Assembly (NCBI GenBank): GCA_030696085.1
Contig: JAUYNL010000063.1
Coordinates: 1-47,918, forward strand
Source: Luteolibacter sp.
GTDB taxonomy: Bacteria; Verrucomicrobiota; Verrucomicrobiia; Verrucomicrobiales; Akkermansiaceae
Reading direction: 5' to 3'
Length of the DNA stretch: 47,918 bases
In this document: one piece after another, positions 139-36,974 of the stretch
How positions within the stretch are numbered: the first letter of the stretch is position 1
Layout of the letters: each line of letters starts with the position of its first letter
Position numbers and translations under genes: made by a program
The notes under the pieces: generated by a model
What the model was told of the DNA's origin: nothing
Databases searched by the model: none
Seen by the model: the letters and a program-made list of their open reading frames with translations, nothing else

Positions 139-786
139 TTGGCCAGGACCGAAGTGCGTCTGGCCAAGCGGCTACAGGCACTCGACCAGGAGATCGCGGC
201 TTATCTCAACTCCCGGCCTCATCCCAAACGCAAAAGTCTGATCAAGTCCTCCCGACGAGTTGCCGACGAGAAGGCTGAAAAGCGCCACCGGAGACGCGGC
301 ATTCCGATGCCGTGTCCTGTGCCCGAGCAAATTGCCAAGCTTGCCGGCGAAGAGGAAATCACCCTTGAAAATATTCAGCGTTGGCTTGGGGATCTGGGAA
401 TTCTGCACGAACCCACCAAGAACGGAACAGGATTGAAGCTCACCTATCCAAAATTGCGCAAGACGGGTAAAAAATACAGGAATGCAAGAGGGCGTTACCC
501 CCTTCGCGAACTCGTGCTTCGCATCAAGGAAGCCCGATTCGATCTCGATCTGGTAAAAAACCCTGAGAAATACCAGGATCATCCCAGCGCCCATGCCGTG
601 GCCACCACCGAGCCCGTCACCCCCGAGCCCGTCACCCCCGAGCCTGTCACCCCCGAGCTTGTCGCCGATGATTCAAGGGGCACCTCCAAAAAATTGGACC
701 CCTCCACCAAGAAGCAGGAGAAGACTGAGGCTCAGAAGCAAAAACCAAAGCCCAAGGACAAGAATGATGAAATGGAAATCAACTGA
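139..786 (+). CDS. Hypothetical basic protein, 215 aa, Pro-rich tail
   Basis: I do not recognise the family. The start is a TTG at 139, chosen because an in-frame stop lies at 109-111 and a purine-rich GGAAAAAAA stretch sits about 10 nt upstream; no ATG occurs early in the frame. The protein is strongly basic in residues 20-60 and from 90 to 120. A low-complexity tail begins near residue 155 with repeated EPVTP units and ends in a Lys/Gln-rich segment. It has no signal peptide or membrane segment. The basic character suggests nucleic-acid binding, but that is inference. It is isolated from the next gene by about 800 non-coding bases. Confidence 0.55.
   Translation: MARTEVRLAKRLQALDQEIAAYLNSRPHPKRKSLIKSSRRVADEKAEKRHRRRGIPMPCPVPEQIAKLAGEEEITLENIQRWLGDLGILHEPTKNGTGLKLTYPKLRKTGKKYRNARGRYPLRELVLRIKEARFDLDLVKNPEKYQDHPSAHAVATTEPVTPEPVTPEPVTPELVADDSRGTSKKLDPSTKKQEKTEAQKQKPKPKDKNDEMEIN
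613..657 (+). repeat. Tandem 15-bp repeat in coding sequence
   Basis: Three copies of a 15-bp unit (CCCGTCACCCCCGAG, the third with one C-to-T change) lie in frame inside the preceding gene and encode repeated PVTPE. Copy number is likely to vary between strains by slippage without breaking the frame. Confidence 0.8.
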
Positions 787-1017
787 CGAGATTCCTCATG
801 CCGGCACCCCAATCGGTGCCGCTTGCGGCCTCACCAAACTCGGCCATCTCACAGCCTCATCGGCTCTTTGCGGGAACCGCTCCAACCGCGTTTCACTCTG
901 CGACTGCCAGAACGGCAGTCCTCGCCTAAACGGCGTGACGGATTCGCGAACGCGAACCATCTTTGCCCTAAGCGGGCCAATGCGCCGGAACAACACCGGC
1001 GGGAGCCGCTCACCGCG

Positions 1018-1056
1018 CGTGCTACCGACGGGCTTCAACAGCCCGTCGGTAGCACG
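1018..1056. repeat. Perfect 17-bp inverted repeat, 5-nt loop
   Basis: Arms 1018-1034 and 1040-1056 are exact reverse complements around the loop TCAAC. There is no T-run after it, so it is not a standard intrinsic terminator on the plus strand. Confidence 0.85.
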
Positions 1057-1077
1057 TTTCGTGGCGTCTCCATCTAC

Positions 1078-1145
1078 GCAAGATGCCGATACCCCTGCTA
1101 CCGAGATGCTACCGCACATCGTCATCAGGGGTATCGGCATCTTGC
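1078..1145. repeat. Perfect 20-bp inverted repeat, 28-nt loop
   Basis: Arms 1078-1097 and 1126-1145 are exact reverse complements. The loop (1098-1125) contains GCTACCGAGATGCTACCG, which itself repeats GCTACCG. This is the longest perfect repeat in the region and lies in the middle of the hairpin series. Confidence 0.85.
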
Positions 1146-1440
1146 CAAGAAGGTGTGAGCGCACCCCCTCTTGGATCTCCCCCGGCGAGCCGCCGTTCAG
1201 GAACCTGTTCCTGAAACCGCTTCGCCTTTGCCCATCCCATGGGGTTGCCGAACGGCAACCCTGCGTTCCGATGGGCATGAACCGCGACCACAACTCCGAT
1301 GTGCCACCTTGCGCTGGGCTCTTCCCGGGCTTGTTCCCGCAACGCGCCCCACTGGCAGTCTGGCGGAACTCGGCAGGTGCCACCCTGCCCGTCGTCTGCA
1401 GGCGCATGATCACCCGCAGTCAAACTTGCCGAGGTGAGGT

Positions 1441-1582
1441 CATTTAGCTGGTATTATAGCCAAGTAAATACCAAGATTAAGTCGACAAGTAATTGTTCTT
1501 CAGAAATACCAACTTTCGACAACTCATGGGAAACCTAGGTATTTTTCTGCATTTATTACCAGGATCGTGATAGCGTTCCCCC
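1441..1582 (+). promoter_or_regulatory. AT-rich upstream region with repeated AAATACCAA
   Basis: The base composition turns AT-rich just before the 196-aa gene. AAATACCAA occurs at 1466-1474 and 1504-1512, 38 bp apart, and the related inverse GGTATT appears near 1450 and 1536. Such repeated sites in front of a gene with a helical N-terminal domain suggest regulator binding. No clear -10/-35 pair can be assigned with confidence. Confidence 0.35.
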
Positions 1583-2173
1583 ATGTCGAAATCGAATCTA
1601 GATCCTCATGCTGATCTGATCCTGGATCTGCTGGCAAAGGAAGCCACCAACGGGGAGATCCTCGACATCTTGCTGGCAAAGCCGGCCGAAACCTCGCTGG
1701 AGGCCGTACGGGCATGGATCAAAAAGAATGCCGACCCGAAGCTGTTGAAGGGGCGCGGCAAAGGCAGAAGGCGAAAACCAGAGCATGCCAGGTTTTCCAT
1801 CATCCCAGACCACCGCGACCCCATGACCATACCGCCTGTTCTGGAGGCTACCCTGAATCTTTTCTCCGAGCCGCGCACTTCCCGGATCGGTGGCAGGGTA
1901 GGGACCGCTGAGGCGTTTCTCCACTCCGCCGGCATCGAAGTGGATCCATCCACACCGCCGTGGCGGTGGATTCTTCCGGCGAGATCCCTCACCAGCCTCG
2001 CTGATGTCGAACTCCTCCTGCTTGCCTACCTGCTCTCGGATCGGCCCGAGCTACCAGCCCGCGGCACTACCGCTGCCCATCGGAGTTGGCTTTTGGACCT
2101 GACGCGGGATGCCTCCAAGCTGCGAGCCAAGATCAACGAGGGAATCAATTTCACCTTTTCGGAAATACCCTGA
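1583..2173 (+). CDS. Hypothetical 196-aa protein, possible DNA-binding N-terminus
   Basis: No family is recognised. Residues 8-48 look like a helical bundle of the kind used for DNA binding (short helices with a turn near ATNGEIL), followed by a very basic linker at residues 57-68 rich in Lys, Arg and Gly. The C-terminal half contains a leucine-rich helix (residues about 137-152). The start ATG at 1583 is the first in frame and follows an AT-rich region with repeated sites, so self-regulation is possible but unproven. No signal peptide is visible. Confidence 0.55.
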   Translation: MSKSNLDPHADLILDLLAKEATNGEILDILLAKPAETSLEAVRAWIKKNADPKLLKGRGKGRRRKPEHARFSIIPDHRDPMTIPPVLEATLNLFSEPRTSRIGGRVGTAEAFLHSAGIEVDPSTPPWRWILPARSLTSLADVELLLLAYLLSDRPELPARGTTAAHRSWLLDLTRDASKLRAKINEGINFTFSEIP

Positions 2174-12851: not shown

Positions 12852-13624
12852 GAGGACTCGATCTTTTCCGCGAACGCCTCAGGCCGCACGAAGGTTCCAT
12901 CGTGCTGATCGGCGGCGCGGCGTGCGACGATTGGTTCGCCCGCCAGTCGCTCCAGTTCCGGGCCACCCAGGATCTCGACATCGTCCTGATCATCGAACTC
13001 ATCGACGCGGCGGCGCTCACCGCTCTGCGGGATTTCATCCGCGAAGGCGGCTACCGATCTCGCTTTCGTAGCAGCGGCAGCCCTGAGCTCTTCCGCTTCG
13101 CCGACCCCGCTGACGAGCGCTTCCCCAAGGAACTCGAATTCTTCAGCCGCACCCCCTCGGACTATGATCTCGCTCCCGGCGAGGTGATCCCCGTCAGCAT
13201 GGAGCCGGATCATCACAGCCTTTCCGCGATCCTCCTGAACGATGCCTACTACGATCTCATCCGCACTCATCAAGACACCCGTGATGGTCTGGGTATTTCC
13301 AACGCCACCGCTCTCATCCCTCTCAAGGCTTATGCCTGGCTGGATCTCAGCCGCCTCAAGGCGGAGGGGCAAAAGATCGACTCGAAAAAAATCGTCAAAC
13401 ACCGCTCGGACGTGTTCCGGCTCGCGGCCACGCTTCCCGCCGAGTTCGGCCCCGCGCTTCCGGAGGAAATTCTTCAGGACCTCCGCCACTTCATGCAGGC
13501 CTTCCCCGCGGATTCTCCCGACTGGCAAAGCATCCTCGCCTCCGTGAAGGACACCGTGGGCGCGAACCTGACCCCAACGGCTCTCCGCGAGGCCATTTAC
13601 TCCTACTTCCGCCTCACCGACTGA
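12845..13624 (+). CDS. AbiEii/DUF6036-like nucleotidyltransferase
   Basis: A 259-aa protein with the minimal nucleotidyltransferase signature: a GG pair at 23-24 (LIGGAA) followed by DLD at 43-45 (TQDLDIVL). These residues bind metal and nucleotide in the polymerase-beta superfamily. AbiEii-type enzymes act as toxins that modify cellular RNAs when freed from AbiEi. The start at 12845 overlaps the regulator by 7 nt, so the two are likely co-translated. The pair sits inside the helicase-methyltransferase operon, which suggests either a guard/addiction role or a working part of the defence system. The exact substrate cannot be read from sequence. Confidence 0.75.
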   Translation: MVRGLDLFRERLRPHEGSIVLIGGAACDDWFARQSLQFRATQDLDIVLIIELIDAAALTALRDFIREGGYRSRFRSSGSPELFRFADPADERFPKELEFFSRTPSDYDLAPGEVIPVSMEPDHHSLSAILLNDAYYDLIRTHQDTRDGLGISNATALIPLKAYAWLDLSRLKAEGQKIDSKKIVKHRSDVFRLAATLPAEFGPALPEEILQDLRHFMQAFPADSPDWQSILASVKDTVGANLTPTALREAIYSYFRLTD

Positions 13625-13668
13625 AGCTTCACTTTCAGTATCTCAGCTCCAGCCTGTGATATACCGCC

Positions 13669-13788
13669 ATGCCTACCCACTTCGACCTCATCATTACAGT
13701 GGACTATCCGAGCCGCACCGCCGAATTCATCCTCCGCGATTCGGTAGGCGTTCAGCTCGCTTACCCGCTAGTCGTTGAATCCGAATAG
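13669..13788 (+). pseudogene. 39-aa open frame, probable 5' stub of a lost gene
   Basis: The frame begins MPTHFDLIITVDYPS and stops after 39 codons. The text reads like the beginning of a normal cytosolic protein that ends abruptly, and the following gene has a different base composition. I take it as the remaining 5' end of a gene replaced by the 328-aa cargo gene. A genuine small protein is the alternative. Confidence 0.35.
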
Positions 13789-13793
13789 TCATT

Positions 13794-14780
13794 ATGGGGA
13801 CCGACCAGACAAACTCATTTCATCAGTCAAAGTCTCTGAAATCAGAGATCAAGGAAGATGGTTCGGTTATCTGGAAGGGAGAACCATTGACGAGAATTTC
13901 ACAGGTCGAAGAGATAGTCAGCCACTGTCAGTCCTTTATCAAACGGCACCCCGCGCAATCTAACATTGGCGAAGAACTGGGTGCGTTCGAGTTACTATCG
14001 ATGGCGAAATCGGCGAAACAGAAACTTCCGACGGAAGAAGAGTTGGTTTTGCTTCGGCCAGACATTCCGCCACCACCAGCCGCCCCGACAATCGAGTTGC
14101 CCATATTAGGAAAGGTGTTTCACGGTCAACGGATTCCTAATTATCCTCGAAATAGGGCTTTTCAGGCTGCCATCGCAAAATGGGAGCAGGTTCAGCAGGA
14201 TTATAGGGATCGCCTGGAGGAATATCGGGCCATGATGCCAGAGTTCCAGCGTCGGGTGAAGCGTTGGAACGAACTACATGGTAGTGAGGGGTTGCGAAAG
14301 CTTAGGTCCTTGCATAAGCGATTGCAAAATCGAATCCACGACCTCTCGGCTTTGCTGTCTGACAAGACGGAGTTCGCTTTCGCAGATCTGGAGGAAATAC
14401 TTCCTCCGGGAAGTTCCGAAAGAAGCAATGTGCTTACGGCGATTGAACATTCGGGTCAACCTTTGAATCGGGAGGTTCGCGAACGGATTCAATTCTTGGA
14501 GAAGCTGAAACCAACCAAGGTGTTCCGCGGGATGGTCAGAAGGCAGTATCGGGACTATCTCCTTTTTCTGTTTGGATCGGAGATGCCTGCCATCGTGGAG
14601 AGTCCCTACTACGGCAACGCGACCTACATACTCTACACCAGCCCTTTGGAACTTTGTCGCCTCACAAAGCAGGAACTACAGCAGCATCCCGGTGCTTCAC
14701 GACTGATTCATTCCGACCTTGGCAAATGGCGACAGGAAGTCTGCCGCATTCTCGGGGTACCTTTTCCGAGCGGTCACTGA
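13794..14780 (+). CDS. Hypothetical 328-aa protein, coiled-coil centre
   Basis: Family not recognised. Residues about 130-195 are rich in Arg, Glu, Gln and Leu and likely form a coiled coil; a proline-rich segment (PDIPPPPAAP) lies near residue 90. The C-terminal part is richer in aromatic residues (YRDYLLFLFG, SPYYGNATYILY) and may be a compact domain. Codon use is visibly more A/T-ending than in the genes on either side, so it is likely a later insertion into the operon between the nucleotidyltransferase and the methyltransferase. It lies 5 nt after the 39-aa stub. Confidence 0.6.
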   Translation: MGTDQTNSFHQSKSLKSEIKEDGSVIWKGEPLTRISQVEEIVSHCQSFIKRHPAQSNIGEELGAFELLSMAKSAKQKLPTEEELVLLRPDIPPPPAAPTIELPILGKVFHGQRIPNYPRNRAFQAAIAKWEQVQQDYRDRLEEYRAMMPEFQRRVKRWNELHGSEGLRKLRSLHKRLQNRIHDLSALLSDKTEFAFADLEEILPPGSSERSNVLTAIEHSGQPLNREVRERIQFLEKLKPTKVFRGMVRRQYRDYLLFLFGSEMPAIVESPYYGNATYILYTSPLELCRLTKQELQQHPGASRLIHSDLGKWRQEVCRILGVPFPSGH

Positions 14781-30348: not shown

Positions 30349-31116
30349 ATGAATCCCCTCGAACGCTCGCTCATTGAAAAAGCCGGTTACGCCAACGGCT
30401 GGGAAAATGTGCGCGAAAGCACGGCAGAGCGGGTGATCATGTTCTCCGCCCGCCACAAGGCGCAGGCTTTCGTTTCCACGGCTGGCAACGACGGCGGGGC
30501 ATGGCGCGTGGAATTTCCCCAGGGGCCGCCCGTGGGGGAACTGGCGAGGGCGTTTGCGGTGGTGCCGGGGGAGGCCGGGCCATTCCAAGCCACCGGCGAG
30601 GCTGCTCTGGGGAGGCTGCTCCGCCGTGCCGCCGAACTGGCAATGTCGCTGCCGAACCACGCGGCAGATCTTTACGCCGAAGAAGTCGCCAAGATCGTGG
30701 CCGAGCCACCCAGCACCACCGAGGCCCTGCGACTTACCAAACAGCGCGTCGGCCAGAACCTCTTCCGCAAGGCCCTCATGGATTATTGGGGCGGGGCATG
30801 TGCCGTCATGGGCATTCACCTGCCCGAACTCCTCCGCGCCAGCCACGCCAAGCCGTGGGCCGAATGCGCGAGCGACGCCGAGCGCTTGGACGTCTTCAAC
30901 GGCTTCCTCCTCTCCGCGCAGCTCGATGCCCTCTTCGACTCCGGCCTGATCACTTTCGACGACAACGGTGAACTGGTCGCCTCACCCCGCCTCGATCCCT
31001 TCCACCAAACGCTTCTCGGTGTTGCCGGACATCCACCGCTCCACCTCCGCTGGATCAGCTCCCAGCACCTCCCATACATCGCCTGGCACCGCGAGCATGT
31101 CTTCCGTCAATCGTGA
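30349..31116 (+). CDS. HNH endonuclease
   Basis: A 255-aa protein whose C-terminal half is an HNH nuclease of the HNH_2 type: YWGGACAVMGIHLPELL, ASHAKPWAECASDAERLDVFNGFLLS, LDALFDSGLITFDDNG. The usual core residues (the His of ASHAKPW, the Asn of FNGFLL and the late His/Asp position) are in place, though the late histidine is replaced by Asp in LDALFD. The N-terminal 110 residues form a domain commonly joined to this nuclease type in other bacteria. It follows the CBASS hairpin by about 120 nt, so it likely has its own promoter. Whether it serves CBASS or is separate cargo is unclear; there is no SAVED domain as in Cap5. Confidence 0.8.
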   Translation: MNPLERSLIEKAGYANGWENVRESTAERVIMFSARHKAQAFVSTAGNDGGAWRVEFPQGPPVGELARAFAVVPGEAGPFQATGEAALGRLLRRAAELAMSLPNHAADLYAEEVAKIVAEPPSTTEALRLTKQRVGQNLFRKALMDYWGGACAVMGIHLPELLRASHAKPWAECASDAERLDVFNGFLLSAQLDALFDSGLITFDDNGELVASPRLDPFHQTLLGVAGHPPLHLRWISSQHLPYIAWHREHVFRQS

Positions 31117-31342: not shown

Positions 31343-31511
31343 GCAAAAAGCGATGTTTGTCCGTGTTTGTCCGTGACCGACCACCCAAAAGACGGTTTCG
31401 GATTCAGCTTGAATGGCCAATGGTCGTGAGGGCTCGGTTTGGCAACAATGCCCCCTTCCTTGGAAATGGTAAACAACGCTCATGCCTACATGACACGATT
31501 TCCGCCATACC

Positions 31512-31556
31512 CGTACAGGCGGGAAAAATAAAAAATCTGCGGTGGCCGCCTGTACG
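31512..31556. promoter_or_regulatory. 11-bp inverted repeat before the metallophosphoesterase
   Basis: CGTACAGGCGG (31512-31522) and CCGCCTGTACG (31546-31556) are perfect reverse complements separated by 23 nt with an A-rich stretch (GAAAAATAAAAAATC). The distance between arm centres is about 34 bp. It is 50 nt before the start codon, suitable for a regulator-binding site around a promoter. Confidence 0.5.
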
Positions 31557-31605
31557 CCACCTCCACTTTCTGTGTTTATAGGGTGAACAATCACACCCGA
31601 AACCC

Positions 31606-32439
31606 ATGACACAGGCCTTCCGATACCAATCAAAACGACAAAAACGCATCTGCTGGATGACCGATCTTCATCTCGACCAAGCAGACAGCAACTCCACCTC
31701 TCAATTACTCAAAAAGCTGGAGGGAGAGGAATACGATATGGCCCTGATCACTGGAGATGTCGCCTCTTCCCAACATCTCTCGGAGCATCTTACGATGCTT
31801 GCTAAAGCCTGCGGCAGCCGACCTATCTACATCACGCTTGGGAATCATGACTTCTATGGAAGCTCCATCACGGGCACACGGCAATTGATCGAAAAGGTCT
31901 GCCGCCAAGTTCCCAATCTCCACCACCTCTCCAATGGTGGGGCAGTTGACCTTGGAAACCGCACCATCCTTGTGGGCGGAGATGGCTGGGCGGATGGTCA
32001 ATGGCGCGGGCGAAGAACAAAAGACATCAACAGTCCCGACCATTACAGCATTCGTGACTTTAGAGGACTTAACAAGTGGGAGCGTCTCCGTAAAATGCGC
32101 GCATTGGGTCAGGCCTCTGCTGTCTCGATCATCAATCGCCTGAGACCAGCGTTGCGATTCAATCGCCACATCTACGTTGCAAGTCATATCCCAGCATTCA
32201 GAACTTCCGCGCTCTTTGATGGGAAGCCATGCGATGCCAACCATCAACCTCATTTTGTACATGCACAATTAGGAGCCATACTCATCTGGTCGGCGAAAAG
32301 CAACCCTTCAACAAGATTTACTTCTCTAGCAGGTCATACTCACAGCGAGTGCAAGGATGTCGTTTTACATAACCTAACATCCATCGTCGGAGGACATCGC
32401 AAGCATCGGCCAGACATCCAAGGAATCTTGGCGGCATAG
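31606..32439 (+). CDS. Calcineurin-like metallophosphoesterase
   Basis: A 277-aa two-metal phosphoesterase. The motifs occur in order: D20-x-H22 (TDLHLD), GDVAS with D51, GNHDFYG with N80, H81 and D82, a later SHIP, and GHTHSE near the C-terminus. All metal ligands appear present. Members act on phosphomonoesters, phosphodiesters, nucleotides or DNA/RNA ends; the substrate cannot be deduced. There is no signal peptide, so it is cytoplasmic. It is the first gene of a four-gene AT-richer cassette and is followed after 83 nt, with two hairpins, by a sigma-like gene. Confidence 0.85.
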   Translation: MTQAFRYQSKRQKRICWMTDLHLDQADSNSTSQLLKKLEGEEYDMALITGDVASSQHLSEHLTMLAKACGSRPIYITLGNHDFYGSSITGTRQLIEKVCRQVPNLHHLSNGGAVDLGNRTILVGGDGWADGQWRGRRTKDINSPDHYSIRDFRGLNKWERLRKMRALGQASAVSIINRLRPALRFNRHIYVASHIPAFRTSALFDGKPCDANHQPHFVHAQLGAILIWSAKSNPSTRFTSLAGHTHSECKDVVLHNLTSIVGGHRKHRPDIQGILAA

Positions 32440-32474
32440 CCGATCTTACCATTGGTAACAATCACCTCCTGTCT

Positions 32475-32521
32475 CCGCAGTTTTTTCAAACTGCGGGACC
32501 CAAAGCCCGGATCCCCCGGGC
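32475..32521 (+). promoter_or_regulatory. Two consecutive hairpins just before a start codon
   Basis: CCGCAGTTT (32475-32483) pairs with AAACTGCGG (32488-32496), and GCCCGG (32505-32510) pairs with CCGGGC (32516-32521). The second ends 1 nt before the ATG at 32523. The first, read with its internal T-run, could stop transcription from the phosphoesterase; the second could block ribosome access. Confidence 0.5.
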
Positions 32522-32522
32522 A

Positions 32523-33167
32523 ATGAAAAGCAAAACCAACACCAAAACAAACAATCGGAAATCGAACGGAACCAGTTCCTCACTCAGGAATACATCGAAC
32601 GAAATCAATCTCATGGCAAATGAACTCTCGTCTTTGGCAGTGCTGAAGCTGCGATCAGGCGTCATGAAAGACCACTTGGCTGGCGCGGAGGACGACATTC
32701 GGCAAGATGCTGTATTACTCGCCCTATGCTGGTATAGCAGACACAAAAAGGATGAAGCCAACGGAAATACAAAGGAATCATGGAATGCGCCACAGAAATT
32801 GGCTATAGCCTTGAACTTCGTTAAACTGAGGTATGGCACAAGGCTGAAGAAATCTCCCAAAACAGTGAGCGAGAACGATCTGCCGGAGTCAATATTGCAT
32901 CAACAGATCGATACATCCCGCTTTGACTGGACGACTGATCGCATGCGCACGGCTGTAGCAAAGGCTCTTAACATCGCTCGCAGTTCTGGAACCATCTCCC
33001 ACCTAAACGCCACAGTTGCATGCATGGTCCTGATCCGCGGCCTGAAAGTCACAGAGGCTGCCGAATCTCTCGGTATAACTCGTGGCGCTGTTTATCAACA
33101 TCTCGACAGAGTAAAACGCGCACTTCGGCCGATCATAGATCAAATTGAAGTCTCATACACCATTTAG
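32523..33167 (+). CDS. Small sigma-70-like protein
   Basis: A 214-aa protein with an N-terminal Lys/Asn-rich lead. The stretch EDDIRQDAVLLALCWYSR resembles the D-L-V-Q core helix of sigma region 2, and the C-terminal TEAAESLGITRGAVYQHLDRVKRAL (in two parts around residues 178-202) is a good region-4 helix-turn-helix. It may direct transcription of its own cassette or act as a simple DNA-binding regulator. Two hairpins lie immediately before its start. It is AT-rich in codon use, as are the genes on either side. It is distinct from the sigma-like protein of the CBASS block. Confidence 0.55.
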   Translation: MKSKTNTKTNNRKSNGTSSSLRNTSNEINLMANELSSLAVLKLRSGVMKDHLAGAEDDIRQDAVLLALCWYSRHKKDEANGNTKESWNAPQKLAIALNFVKLRYGTRLKKSPKTVSENDLPESILHQQIDTSRFDWTTDRMRTAVAKALNIARSSGTISHLNATVACMVLIRGLKVTEAAESLGITRGAVYQHLDRVKRALRPIIDQIEVSYTI

Positions 33168-33204
33168 TAATCCCTGATTACCAATATCTTAATATATACC
33201 ACGC

Positions 33205-34335
33205 GTGAACAAAGAAACTAAACTTACTAAGAATGAATCACAACTCCTGCTGCGCACGCCACAGGAAATCGTAGCCCATCTTGACCAATACATTGTTGGG
33301 CAGGATGAAGCCAAGAAGACCTTGGCGTGCGCTTGCTATTGTCACCTCCACTCCTGCGCTACCATCGAGTCCATTGTGGAACCTGTTTGGCCGGACAACC
33401 ATACACTTATCGCCGGCCCCAGTGGAACTGGCAAATCAGAAATGATTCGGGTTCTTTGCTCATTACTAAAAATTCCTAACTACCAAATTGACTGCACGAG
33501 TTTGACTCCAAATGGTTATAAGGGAACCAATATTTCATACATCCTCAATGATTTGGAAGAGAAATTCGTCCTTGATGATGACATTACACCGCCATGCATC
33601 GTGATATGGGATGAGGTCGATAAACTTTGGGATGATGGATCGGAAGCAGGAAAGTATCGTAGAATGACCCAGTCGGACACCCTCAAAGTTTTTGAGGGTG
33701 CCAAAGTATCAGAACGGTTGGATCTGTCTCGTATTCTCCATGTCGCGTGCGGATCATTTGTTGGCATGGACGAAATTCTTCACCCAAAGAGGCCCCCAAC
33801 AATCGGATTCGAATCAGCGTTATTTCAAGACAATCATTCTGGGCCAGTATCGAGCACACATATTGAAGCAAAGCACTTCATCGAGTTCGGTCTAATCCCA
33901 GAACTCGTCGGTCGCTTCAGCAGGTTTGCTGCAACAGAGCGACATGATTTAGCCGACATGAAAGACATCATGTTGAAATCCAAAATCAGTTTTCTTTGGA
34001 GGAAGATAGATCAGTATAAACGTCACGGCACAAAACTTGTATTTTTGGATGATGCTGTCGAGGAACTGGCAAAAATCGCGCTGAACCACCCCTCGGGGGC
34101 TCGCGGCCTAAGGCAATTGATCTCCCATGCGCTTGCCCCGTGGGATTTCCAACTGTCCGAATTGCTCACCAGTGGGATTCTTGAAATCCGCTATGATCGC
34201 CTATCCATTCAGGACGGAACGAAAGCACAGGTGGTCATGGTTCCTCCATCGGCAGCCGCGCGGAAGCCGATGCCGAAGGACGGAACCATACAAAGAGAGG
34301 GTAGCGTCGATGACGGTGACATTTTCATTTTCTGA
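33205..34335 (+). CDS. ClpX-like AAA+ ATPase lacking the zinc domain
   Basis: A 376-aa unfoldase-type ATPase, GTG start. The order follows ClpX: IVGQDEAKKTLA, Walker A GPSGTGKS at 71-78, Walker B IVIWDE with D136/E137, a pore loop reading GYKG (104-107) where ClpX has GYVG, and sensor 1 near ACGSFVG. An IGF tripeptide at 200-202 sits in the loop ClpX uses to dock ClpP, then FGLIPELVGR with arginine finger R237, and GARGLRQ for sensor 2. The N-terminal zinc-binding domain of ClpX, which recruits adaptors, is absent, so substrates must be chosen another way. It follows the sigma-like gene by 37 nt and precedes the repeat protein. Confidence 0.85.
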   Translation: MNKETKLTKNESQLLLRTPQEIVAHLDQYIVGQDEAKKTLACACYCHLHSCATIESIVEPVWPDNHTLIAGPSGTGKSEMIRVLCSLLKIPNYQIDCTSLTPNGYKGTNISYILNDLEEKFVLDDDITPPCIVIWDEVDKLWDDGSEAGKYRRMTQSDTLKVFEGAKVSERLDLSRILHVACGSFVGMDEILHPKRPPTIGFESALFQDNHSGPVSSTHIEAKHFIEFGLIPELVGRFSRFAATERHDLADMKDIMLKSKISFLWRKIDQYKRHGTKLVFLDDAVEELAKIALNHPSGARGLRQLISHALAPWDFQLSELLTSGILEIRYDRLSIQDGTKAQVVMVPPSAAARKPMPKDGTIQREGSVDDGDIFIF

Positions 34336-34374
34336 GACACAGAAGCCAAATAACAACCATCCAGAACTTTACCA

Positions 34375-35280
34375 ATGAACCATATCGAACTAATCCATCA
34401 CATAAACCACTACGCGAGGACCGGCATCATCGATGACGCGCTCATCCCCAGCTATGATCAGACCGGCCGATGGCAGGGTGACAGCATACCCTTGATCAAG
34501 TCCGCGCAGCGTGCCGCTCTCAGCAGCATCCGCAAGTCGCTGCTACCCGTATCCCGGCGCACAACGAGGAGCAGATCCGGAACCATTCTGCGCACTTCCT
34601 TTGTATGGCGTCGCGAGAACCCAGTCACGATTACCTACTGCGAAATCAGGGGAGACGTCACTATTTTTGAAAATGCTTCGGTGCATGCCACCGGTCTCAG
34701 GCACGTCGGTGGACGGTTCATAGCAAATAACTGCACCCGACTCTATCTGCCCCATCTCACGTCCGTATCCGGGAGCTTTGAGGCGATGCATGGATACTCG
34801 CTCAAGGTGCCCCGTCTGCTCTATGTTGGGGGAGACTTGATCGTGGTGGGTCATGTGCCGCCCCGCATTGAGACAGTCGGTGGGCGATTCGGCGTCTACT
34901 GGCTCTTTGATGTCGAAGCGCCAAGGCTCCGGAGTGTAGGCGGAGCCTTCGTTGCGCCCAAGGCTGAGATGGTGGCAATGCCCGTCTTAGAGAAGATTGG
35001 GGGAGGTTTTCTCCTCAGCAATATGGCACGCAGGGTTCAGGCCCCTCGACTCACATTCGTAGGTGGAGATTTCCTGGCAGATGCTGTGAGGAACCTGCGT
35101 GCCCCAAGGTTACGCGTAGTCGGTGGCAATTTGGACACAAGATCCGCAATCGATTACTACCATCCGGACGTTAGGGTCGCCGGGGAGTGGACACCACACC
35201 CAGATGCATGTGTGAATTGGCAGCGGCGGGAATCAGCGCGGCAAGCACTGAAAGGGCATACTGGACCGATCTTTCTTTGA
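34375..35280 (+). CDS. Repeat protein with about 20-residue VGG units
   Basis: A 301-aa protein. After an N-terminal helical part (residues 1-75), the sequence runs through about eight repeats of 17-21 residues of the form L-x-x-V-G-G-x-F or V-S-G-S-F with a following A-P-R or V-P-R: LRHVGGRF, LTSVSGSF, LLYVGGDL, IETVGGRF, LRSVGGAF, LEKIGGGF, LTFVGGDF, LRVVGGNL. This regular spacing suggests a beta-solenoid or L-domain-like stack. It lacks a signal peptide, so it is cytosolic. It may be a recognition or adaptor protein for the ClpX-like ATPase 40 nt upstream, but that is inference. Confidence 0.6.
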   Translation: MNHIELIHHINHYARTGIIDDALIPSYDQTGRWQGDSIPLIKSAQRAALSSIRKSLLPVSRRTTRSRSGTILRTSFVWRRENPVTITYCEIRGDVTIFENASVHATGLRHVGGRFIANNCTRLYLPHLTSVSGSFEAMHGYSLKVPRLLYVGGDLIVVGHVPPRIETVGGRFGVYWLFDVEAPRLRSVGGAFVAPKAEMVAMPVLEKIGGGFLLSNMARRVQAPRLTFVGGDFLADAVRNLRAPRLRVVGGNLDTRSAIDYYHPDVRVAGEWTPHPDACVNWQRRESARQALKGHTGPIFL

Positions 35281-35609
35281 TCAATGGCGGGGGGGGGACT
35301 GTCATCCATGGAGCACATTCTTCCCTCCCCGCCATGCCGCGTTGTGTGTCGCTCACGACTTGTGTTAACGGGTGGGCGCTGTCGGCAGCACCCCACTGGA
35401 AGAGACTGCGCCCTACCACGTCCTGCGGGATCGCTTGTGCATTGGGTCCCGATCCCCCTAACACCCCCCGCCTTACCCGGGCAGAAACGAGTGTTTCTGC
35501 CTGCCGGGAGTCGTGAGGCTACAAGGGAGATCCCCAGTGCAAAGCGCTTTCCTCGTACGCTGGTATCCACAACAGGGCTACTCATCTGGAAGACTATGAA
35601 TCTGCCATA
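35281..35609. other. Intergenic region before the integrase end, with hairpin
   Basis: No gene is supported. GGCAGAAAC (35480-35488) pairs perfectly with GTTTCTGCC (35493-35501) around GAGT, embedded in a GC-rich block CCCGG...CCGGG. The hairpin is of the same kind as those in 787-1440 (short stem, AAC at the loop edge). A nine-base G run lies at about 35288-35297. Confidence 0.45.
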
Positions 35610-36851
35610 TCAAGCCGGCTTTTTCGTTTTCTTGGGTGTGGCTTTACGCCCCTTCGACATCACCACCTCCGGAGTCAAAGCCCAGAATTCGAGAGCCTGC
35701 GGTGCCAATGTCTTCCAGTTCCAATAGTGCCGCAGGAGAATGGCTGGCGAGTTTCCCATTTCTTTCGAGACTTCCCCTGCGTTCTTCACCACCGCCATGC
35801 GGTAGCTCCCATAGCTATGTCTCAGTTGGTCCGCATGCCATTCATGTTTCCAATTTTTTATTAGGAATGCCTCCCAATGCTTCCGCCACCCGCCACCTCT
35901 TTTCCCGACCGCAAGGACGGGCCCTGATAACATTCCTTTCTTATTCCGGATGAAGTCAATCCACAGTGGTAGGGGATCAAGGATAGTAATCACTCGCGCC
36001 GCCGTCTTTGCGAGTTCCGAGTGTATTTCAATCCCATCGGGAGTAACGCTACGCCAGTCCAAGTACATGGCAGGAGCTCCCTTGTATTTCTTTTTGAATT
36101 CCATAGGCCTAATTCCAGCAAATAGACTGAAAGCGATGAATGACAGGCTTGCCCAGTCTTCGGCATCGACCGCAGCGCGCAAAAGTGCCGATGCCTCCGT
36201 GGGGGAAAAGATCACGGCTTCCGGAGTTTTCTTTCTCTTTGTTCCCATTCGCTGCCTCTTGCGTGCGCATGGATTTGTTGGCAAGTAGCCTTGATCCACA
36301 GCCCAGCCAAACCAAGCAGACACGGTCCGTCGTAGTGTAGCACCTGCATTCTCCGCAAAGAATGCATTCATGACCTCTGGCGTCGCTTCCTTGATGGGCC
36401 TGTCGGCTCCAAACCACTTCACGAAGCGGTTGCAGCGGTTGCGAGAGTCATCGGCGTAAATGGAAGGTCCCAGGTGCTTCAACAAGTAATTCGAAAGACA
36501 CTCATTCGCGGTGGAGATCTTCGTAATCGCAAGGGTGTCCCGCAATACGCGTTCACCCACCGCTTTCAAACTACCCGCTCCGGCTTTCAACAGTTTCTCC
36601 TCCAAAGCAAGCCACGCGGCCACTTTCACGCCATCGGCATTGGCGGTGATCTGACCATGGGCTTTCCGTCTCGCCTCCTCATCCCTACAGAACTGCAGGG
36701 CGTCAGCTGAATTGTCGAACAAGCGCCGTGGATTCTTCCGTTTGCCGTTTTCCCAAGTGACTCCGAGAGACACCTGCCACTTGCCATTGGGCAACTCTCT
36801 GGGCTGTAATACCGCCCATTCGCGTTTCTTAGGTTTAGGTTTCCTCGCCAC
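35610..36851 (-). CDS. Tyrosine recombinase (island integrase)
   Basis: A 413-aa phage-type integrase, GTG start. The N-terminal 110 residues include an arm-binding-type region (ELPNGKWQVSLGV), followed by a SAM-like core-binding domain (about 110-200). In the catalytic domain are R248 (FAGIRPMEF), a likely Lys at K282 (ELAKTAARV), R344 in DQLRHSYGSY and the nucleophile candidate Y376 in LLRHYWNW. The two usual histidines appear as Asp (D341) and Asn (N367), which occurs in divergent families, so activity is likely but unproven. Its start is 75 bp from the tRNA fragment, the normal layout for an island integrase next to its attachment site. Confidence 0.85.
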   Translation of the reverse strand: MARKPKPKKREWAVLQPRELPNGKWQVSLGVTWENGKRKNPRRLFDNSADALQFCRDEEARRKAHGQITANADGVKVAAWLALEEKLLKAGAGSLKAVGERVLRDTLAITKISTANECLSNYLLKHLGPSIYADDSRNRCNRFVKWFGADRPIKEATPEVMNAFFAENAGATLRRTVSAWFGWAVDQGYLPTNPCARKRQRMGTKRKKTPEAVIFSPTEASALLRAAVDAEDWASLSFIAFSLFAGIRPMEFKKKYKGAPAMYLDWRSVTPDGIEIHSELAKTAARVITILDPLPLWIDFIRNKKGMLSGPVLAVGKRGGGWRKHWEAFLIKNWKHEWHADQLRHSYGSYRMAVVKNAGEVSKEMGNSPAILLRHYWNWKTLAPQALEFWALTPEVVMSKGRKATPKKTKKPA

Positions 36852-36925
36852 AAACCCAAAGTTGCAAAAAAGTCACAATCTGTCAAATCGGCATTGTAAA
36901 ATAAGGGTTAAATCAACACTAACAC

Positions 36926-36974
36926 GGGACTCATAATCCCTTGGTCCAGGGTTCAAATCCCTGCGGGCCCACCA
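36926..36974 (+). tRNA. 3' fragment of a CAU-anticodon tRNA: attachment site at island right end
   Basis: The 49 bases contain an anticodon loop CTCATAA with anticodon CAT at 36932-36934, a full T-arm (stem 36947-36951 with 36959-36963, loop TTCAAAT), the 3' acceptor strand CGGGCCC, discriminator A and encoded CCA. The 5' half, which should begin GGGCCCG, is absent; upstream sequence is AT-rich island DNA. The anticodon stem matches from GGGA onward. It is not a working tRNA but the direct repeat left by integration into a tRNA-Met-like or Ile2-like gene, most likely recombined in the anticodon region. The intact copy should be left of this window. Confidence 0.85.

Follow-up and report, generated by a model that had tools for sequence, protein, structure and literature searches.

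A recurrent P105–phosphoesterase–sigma-like gene module with a ClpX-like unfoldase: a candidate control module of a Verrucomicrobiota integrative element

Introduction

Clp proteolysis controls some mobile elements and phages, as with the phage Mu repressor and ClpXP, and integrative mobilizable elements and tRNA-borne defence islands combine an integrase and a tRNA 3′ fragment with variable defence cargo. Here we analyze a 47,918-nt stretch of Luteolibacter sp. DNA (contig JAUYNL010000063.1, hereafter the window), which makes up the whole of contig C51 in a 3.77-Mb draft genome and whose right end holds a group of genes that can be compared with both. With the integrative elements and islands it shares the integrase, the tRNA 3′ fragment and the variable defence cargo, and a relaxase gene lies near a related module in genome G421; it differs in its backbone, which consists of the genes that we term P105, MPE, SIG, ClpX-like and P261. 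With the Clp-controlled phages it shares the idea of an induction switch operated by ClpXP, the difference being that the element here would bring its own unfoldase.

The reading that we favor, with modest confidence, is that these genes form the right-hand backbone and control module of a tRNA-integrating Verrucomicrobiota element that has its own sigma switch and unfoldase, and that the adjoining defence island is cargo. At the level of sequence, this proposal builds on a core in which P105 is divergent from MPE–SIG, on a frequent ClpX-type AAA+ gene, an integrase and a tRNA fragment, and on a common motif before P105 and MPE. At the level of titles and abstract openings, a full-text literature search returned no description of the gene set, nor did it match a publication in which a ClpX-like protein, a sigma factor, a metallophosphoesterase and an integrase occur together.

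The module genes and their recurrence

Four plus-strand open reading frames (ORFs) are present at the right end, as the original prediction from this DNA had reported. These are MPE, a calcineurin-like metallophosphoesterase (31606–32439); SIG, an extracytoplasmic function (ECF)-sigma-like protein with a predicted sigma2–linker–sigma4 arrangement (32523–33167); a ClpX-like AAA+ unfoldase without the zinc domain (33205–34335, GTG start); and REP, a repeat protein in which a conserved N-terminal stretch is followed by short repeats and which is an optional part of the module (34375–35280). They are more than chance ORFs, since open-frame homologues exist in relatives, and the identities first given to them are borne out, with support for both the sigma-like and the unfoldase readings. 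Comparison of the ORFs of related loci revealed a fifth gene, P105 (31169–31483, minus strand, 104 aa), which is divergent from MPE; the proposed cassette belongs to a recurring module whose fifth gene had been overlooked. The AT-richer composition ascribed to all four genes holds for MPE, SIG and ClpX-like (GC 0.511, 0.481 and 0.477, respectively) but not for REP (0.567), when compared with 0.584 for both the window and the cargo.

Among 73 scanned genomes of the genus, MPE was found in eight and SIG in seven, and all seven SIG genomes are among the eight with MPE (hypergeometric P of 5e-9, with related genomes treated as independent). The two genes are adjacent in every one of the seven. A close ClpX-like protein (E ≤ 1e-33) occurs in six of the 73 genomes, the window's own included; in G215 it is on a different contig from the MPE–SIG pair, and in G421, where the match is the weakest of the six, it lies ~14 kb from the module. 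REP occurs in seven genomes, with three strong matches that include the window. Synteny, on which the original prediction had staked its four-gene set, is thus conserved for MPE and SIG, which recur together, and is less regular for the ClpX-type and repeat genes. A SIG search of 387 genomes of the phylum returned three matches (the window's own genome, G215 and, weakly, G317) and a P105 search of 384 genomes of the class returned five, and because these matches are so few we consider the module to be rare.

A wider scan of GTDB genomes with an MPE alignment gave 201 MPE relatives in 254 stretches, and one of viral contigs gave 95 of 183; the best 80 of each were kept. A P105 profile matches in 10 of these 80 genomic MPE loci (five of them already in the genus scan); the 80 viral loci have no match. 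Both scans together give 13 separate loci (the window, G215, G401, G416, G421, G434, G450, G451, L089, L163, L094, L090 and L091), all of them in Verrucomicrobiota, with L089 and L163 being two places in one genome. As several contigs are short, counts over these loci are lower bounds. In 12 of the 13, at most one gene separates P105 from MPE (in L089 an AAA+ gene); the G451 contig ends inside MPE. SIG is found within 1 kb of MPE at 11 loci; the G416 contig stops before reaching it, L090 lacks one nearby, and in L091 SIG is divergent with P105 in between. A ClpX-type AAA+ gene is present at eight loci, as a ClpX-like gene in the window, G401, G416 and G450 and as a shorter, more divergent AAA+ gene in G421, L089, L094 and L163. 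P261 is present at five (the window, G416, G421, G450 and L163), REP at four (the window, G421, G434 and L163) and an integrase at seven (the window, G215, G401, L163, L089, G421 and G450), although the integrase is ~34 kb from the module in G421 and ~15 kb away, at the opposite end of its element, in G450. The stretches from G215, G401, G450, G451 and L091 also contain tRNA genes.

The best plasmid and phage relatives of MPE (Gemmatirosa, Legionella adelaidensis and one uncultured phage) carry MPE, but neither SIG nor P105. When ClpX-like alone was used as the query, the first scans of genome contigs and viral contigs returned no relative, and a DNA pattern for the pore loop selected 17 viral stretches, none of which has a tblastn match to the query proteins. 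Matches to ClpX-like in plasmids and phages reach ~32% identity and are mostly named ClpX or unannotated, among the records listed (30 of 85 and 30 of 244); three of these loci (L011–L013) contain no SIG or P105 by profile, and L011 has a weak MPE match (1.6e-4).

A divergent promoter-like region between P105 and MPE

The 122-bp region that separates P105 from MPE (31484–31605) is promoter-like in both directions, with CCTGTAC-N16-GTGT on both strands. It contains an 11-bp perfect inverted repeat (31512–31522/31546–31556), a length that none of 200 shuffles reached, and the CCTGTAC boxes lie inside this repeat, at 31519→31513 on the minus strand and 31549→31555 on the plus strand. We compared this P105/MPE gap across 10 loci, using the P105/AAA+ gap in L089 and leaving out L090 and L091 because P105 is on the MPE strand there and not divergent. 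A common two-part motif, CCTKYAC-N16-SYGT, emerges, with boxes such as CCTTCAC or CCTGTAC. The P105-side box (≤1 mismatch) is located 29–30 nt before the ATG in nine of the 10 loci (P ~1.5e-18 against shuffled regions), and of 19 promoters, 13 have the GT at one constant spacing, while each other spacing tested, over the range 8 to 25, is seen in four or fewer; for G450 the MPE box scored is not the best one, as a better CCTGTAA lies nearer the gene. This geometry would place the P105 start codon near +1, which suggests a leaderless transcript.

The strict motif is found upstream of MPE in five of the 10 loci with P105, in none of 68 genomic loci without it and in none of 80 viral loci, whereas each of 200 shuffled boxes reaches at most one of the 10. 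Over the whole window it occurs twice, both times in the P105/MPE gap; its placing is informative and its number is not, because ~2 occurrences are expected by chance in 48 kb on a rough base-frequency estimate. The gap between MPE and SIG (32440–32522, plus strand) folds into a hairpin with z of −4.9, a stability that none of 200 shuffles matched, and at the DNA level this hairpin is found solely in loci of the window's own genome. The claim that a regulatory structure precedes each gene therefore holds before MPE, with the inverted repeat, and before SIG, with this hairpin, but not for the remaining two gaps, which are 37 and 39 nt long; a generic promoter and terminator scan showed no excess.

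SIG is likely a sigma factor

An AlphaFold2 model of SIG built from seven sequences has a mean pLDDT (predicted local distance difference test score) of 74. Its best Foldseek matches are ECF sigma factors, which cover both halves at 6.9e-5 and weaker; the TM-scores are low (0.23–0.29) and the root-mean-square deviations high because the two domains are placed differently. Compared by single domains with VIA, SIG gives Z-scores of 8–9, middling by VIA's own notes, and its N-terminal half is predicted to be sigma2-like (8b3z, 76 residues, 2.8 Å, Z 8.0; 9isn_F, 91 residues, 3.1 Å, Z 8.1). As in ECF sigma factors, the protein is ~200 aa long, with predicted sigma2 and sigma4 domains joined by a flexible linker, and a promoter-like motif precedes its own operon. 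It departs from them in that no anti-sigma family was found among the neighbors scanned.

Two sequence results weigh against this assignment. The matches of SIG to sigma region 4 and to helix-turn-helix (HTH) families are all below curated cut-offs and sigma2 is undetected by sequence, while the C-terminal HTH resembles the plasmid repressor KorA/TrfB, whose chains match the SIG profile at 0.0015–0.005; no chain named sigma factor does so at or below 0.1. The KORA family of Pfam also matches, at 8e-4 and 20 bits, under its cut-off of 26.7. Given this resemblance of the HTH, a sigma reading of the modeled protein is likely rather than proven. The same evidence, together with the inverted repeats that the boxes form in several loci, is what speaks for a repressor-type immunity switch, in which SIG would be a repressor like KorA/TrfB to which a helical domain is added, the boxes would be operators between ordinary promoters, and ClpX-like would remove the repressor. 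We think this unlikely. SIG shares the C-terminal HTH with KorA/TrfB but has an additional N-terminal helical half, which is the part predicted to be sigma2-like, and both the box-N16-GT geometry and the distance from the P105 ATG are fixed, in the manner of a promoter. Furthermore, in L089 a box with its second part is found before MPE, one gene away from the P105 box. 

A SIG tree, for which the rows were trimmed to the last 235–240 residues and the remnant row L035 was omitted, separates two groups (100/99). The three loci with a TTC box fall in one of them, as does L089, which carries both box types; a label test of SIG clade against box type was not significant.

The ClpX-like protein retains the ClpP-docking loop

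ClpX-like matches PF00004, PF07724 and PF10431 above cut-off, and its best sequence matches in the PDB are ClpX. Against the NCBIfam ClpX models the match reaches 1.7e-46 and stays under the equivalog cut-offs (158.9/359 and 145.5/370.75 bits). The alignment places GPSGTGKS, DEVDK, GRF and GARGLR at what we take to be Walker A, Walker B, the arginine finger and sensor 2, and the protein shares with ClpX these Walker motifs, the GAR of sensor 2 and the C-terminal small domain. It also shares the loop that we take to be the ClpP-docking IGF loop, which reads IGF in the window protein and three of its four close relatives and MGF in the fourth. What presumably is the RKH loop of ClpX is a gap in the window protein and all four relatives, and the N-terminal zinc-binding domain is absent, as the protein starts ~15 residues before the AAA+ core and the NCBIfam match begins at model position 51. 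A further difference is GYKG in place of GYVG. Identity to the genome's probable own ClpX is 25–28%. Three members of the shorter AAA+ family have ClpX or FtsH as their best NCBIfam scores, all weak.

Five of eight AAA+ C-termini inspected (the window, L041, L043, L089 and L094) end in an acidic tail followed by IF or DF, a feature that we take to resemble the tail of bacterial single-strand-binding protein (SSB); one of the eight proteins, that of L008, lies outside a module. In that locus (G215:C9, L008 10014–11938), the ClpX-like gene directly precedes a gene that we labeled SSB-like by reading, and the contig also holds a homologue of the G421 relaxase.

MPE, P105 and a possible switch

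MPE matches PF00149 at 36.2 bits (cut-off 21.5), and the positions that we take to be its metallophosphoesterase motifs (D, GD, GNH, H and GHxH) are invariant in seven aligned sequences. P105 is predicted to adopt an all-beta fold (mean pLDDT 90) and has no Pfam or PHROGs family and no Foldseek match under 0.001; the model is without a convincing known fold. A weak structural match to Lsm exists (Z 6.0, 76 residues, 3.7 Å). This match suggested that P105 is an SspB-like (Sm-fold) Clp adaptor, an idea that stays no more than a lead, as SspB is absent from the structure matches listed and the sequence gives no support.

With the reading of an element with its own sigma switch, the parts can be assembled as follows. 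SIG, as an ECF-type sigma factor, would direct RNA polymerase to the divergent P105 and MPE promoters, by which the module would switch itself on. Transcription would also yield the ClpX-like unfoldase, which could dock on host ClpP via its retained IGF loop and feed it a chosen protein, such as a repressor of the element, an anti-sigma factor or a host factor. Since the zinc domain and the RKH loop are missing, this unfoldase may choose its substrates differently from host ClpX. The switch would be gated by P105, as an adaptor or anti-sigma factor, and by MPE, as a phosphoesterase acting on a signal or on nucleic acid; its probable output would be excision, replication or maintenance of the element.

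A bolder version assigns P105 a direct part. In L090 and L253 (the latter from genome G567), P105 follows genes for a ClpP-family protease (PF00574, 4.5e-35 and 4.4e-38) and a TrwB/TraD-like ATPase, and MPE is the next gene after P105 in L090 but not in L253. The order protease, small protein, ATPase, P105 has the appearance of an operon in both (L090 6910–10798; L253 8253–10871), and by reading, a partial TrwB/TraD-like ATPase also precedes P105 in L252. As P105 thus stands beside Clp-type genes in two unlike settings, we retain as a tentative and rather doubtful idea that such elements bring a ClpX of their own, which takes over host ClpP under new substrate rules and is controlled by a sigma factor of the ECF type that the element also encodes, by P105 as its dedicated all-beta partner and by a phosphoesterase, with the apparent P105 operon of Chthoniobacterales/Spartobacteria, and its ClpP-family protease and TrwB/TraD-like ATPase, as the companion case. 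If true, P105 would be a general partner of element-borne Clp machines.

Element architecture and the place of the defence genes

The compact relative L163 matches the window at both ends, with window 734–2166 corresponding to L163 104–1551 at 77% DNA identity and, at the integrase end, window 35399–36886 corresponding to L163 8642–10132 at 69%. The window's tyrosine-type integrase (35610–36851, minus strand), which matches phrog_1 at 3.5e-17 and has no Pfam match, is 72–74% identical to that of L163. Between the matching flanks P261 (2475–3260, plus strand), P105, MPE, SIG and REP follow in identical order, but while P261 adjoins P105 in L163, 28 kb holding the defence genes separate the two in the window. 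A tRNA 3′ fragment (36926–36974, plus strand, from the CAT anticodon side to CCA) marks the right end; Rfam returns a partial tRNA match at 36906–36963 (30.4 bits, gathering 29), ARAGORN finds no complete tRNA there, and the window's own assembly holds no full-length twin. This fragment is the element's probable right-end attachment site. As the same order of genes occurs in L163 with the 28 kb absent, and as the fragment lies at the right end, the best reading of the module genes is that they are backbone of an integrative element. An integrase profile built without the tested loci matches in three of the 10 genomic loci with P105, in none of 70 without it and in none of 80 viral loci, and as it derives from these integrases it would miss other integrase types. 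A relaxase (PF03432) lies near the G421 module.

Besides the sequence matches of SIG, several observations weigh against this interpretation. The strongest, together with a possible repressor role of SIG, is that the module proteins of the window and L163 are 30–45% identical while the flanks share 69–77% DNA identity; as the flanks are so much more alike, the module may be exchangeable as a unit, like cargo, and would then fit an immunity or defence role as well. Its position relative to the integrase varies. P105 occurs without MPE in the stretches taken at L252 and L253, and no ClpX-type gene was found in the stretches around the G215, L090 and L091 modules. The strict motif is absent before MPE in the other five of the 10 loci, and because most of the loci scored are those from which the motif had been read, its counts describe and do not test; L089's MPE box came from a scan. 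The contig stops short of the element's left border, attachment repeats around the tRNA or tRNA fragment were not found in the window and four relatives, and no relaxase or conjugation gene, as integrative mobilizable elements would have, was identified among the part of the window ORFs that was scanned.

The divergence of the module also speaks for a stand-alone anti-phage cassette, in which REP or P105 would sense the phage, SIG would induce, ClpX-like with ClpP would destroy the target and MPE would cleave nucleotides or nucleic acid; so does the position of CBASS with NucC and a Druantia/Dpd/DISARM-like block next to the module. By PADLOC, the 28-kb stretch contains a DruE-like helicase (8e-98), DpdE (6e-193) and a DrmMI/type IIG-like methylase (5e-66), along with a CBASS set of NucC (1e-94), cyclase (2e-85) and E2 (4e-41). 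These defence genes proper, however, lie to the left of the module, which recurs with integrases and quite different cargo, and in L163 is found without any cargo between P261 and P105. The self-contained cassette with the repeat protein as recognizer, as first proposed, finds no support in a conserved core of P105–MPE–SIG that is accompanied by a ClpX-type gene or by the optional REP in the fractions given above. That no named defence system has this set has stood: there is no such model in PADLOC (2.0.0), and a scan of the four reported genes returned nothing for MPE, SIG or REP and weak generic ATPase matches for ClpX-like. We therefore regard a defence cassette as quite unlikely.

An addiction or superinfection-exclusion module, in which the unfoldase and MPE would be harmful to the cell or to a competitor and be restrained by P105 or SIG, and which would stabilize the element, agrees with the divergent arrangement and with the diversity of the module between otherwise similar elements. 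It is improbable in our view, as family scans found no toxin family among the module genes and addiction pairs do not usually involve as many as three enzymes working together. A gathering of unrelated genes at an integration hot spot, with no common function, is scarcely credible, for although REP is also found elsewhere (C94 of the window's own genome, G435 and G437) and P105 in two places without MPE, P105, MPE and SIG remain linked in different genera and families, with identities of roughly 20–55% and a common motif, so that this account is disfavored for these three and may hold for REP.

Read as the backbone of an integrative element, P105–MPE–SIG is a marker set with which to find this family of Verrucomicrobiota elements, some of which carry defence genes, and it comes with two predictions, the promoter motif and the ClpP-hijacking unfoldase. 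Were the switch to operate in this way, a defence-carrying element would time its own mobilization by a private sigma factor and regulated proteolysis.

Other features of the window and related loci

The defence cargo as a whole (3568–30183) comprises the Druantia/Dpd/DISARM-like helicases and methylase, an LmuB-like ATPase, and CBASS with NucC, cyclase and E2. An HNH protein (30349–31116; PADLOC HNH, 2.6e-25) adjoins P105. L163 has a relative of the window's first helicase, at 32% identity, located beyond its integrase. P261, the 261-aa backbone gene, has no Pfam or PHROGs family; we considered it as a single-strand-binding protein on a resemblance that those databases do not support. Near the left end, a 196-aa gene (1583–2173, plus strand) is 72% identical to its L163 counterpart and has no family in Pfam or PHROGs.

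REP has no Pfam family. Its homologues in G421, G434 and L163 are found with MPE and SIG. Relatives away from the module are present on C94 (L009 9919–10920), in L073 and in L074, and in L009 and L073 they lie near genes that presumably resemble part of a nucleotidyltransferase toxin system.

Two large adjoining hairpins occupy a non-coding-looking stretch at 1018–1153, where a 151-nt fold reaches −96 kcal/mol (z −11.7). They are ~95% identical to L163 over 173 columns, occur among the 73 genus genomes in the window's own genome alone and have no Rfam match; possibly they are an element origin, a transfer site or an RNA. The gap between REP and the integrase holds a second non-coding repeat (35395–35570, plus strand), predicted to be structured and common to related elements, with copies at L070 14060–14222 and 15654–15822 and at L163 8640–8830. 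The G421 element has three copies, and G408 has one match. Across four sequences, two-sided changes affect eight of 50 predicted pairs, with a slightly unfavorable covariation term.

Elsewhere in the window's own genome, a SIG remnant without MPE (C22:28284–28966; L035 8285–8967) lies beside a 3′ copy of tRNA-Met, of which the complete copy is at C94:21728–21802; the remnant is probably the trace of another, decayed element. In L089, a fragment that we take to resemble an integron integrase (13521–14171) adjoins the element's own integrase.

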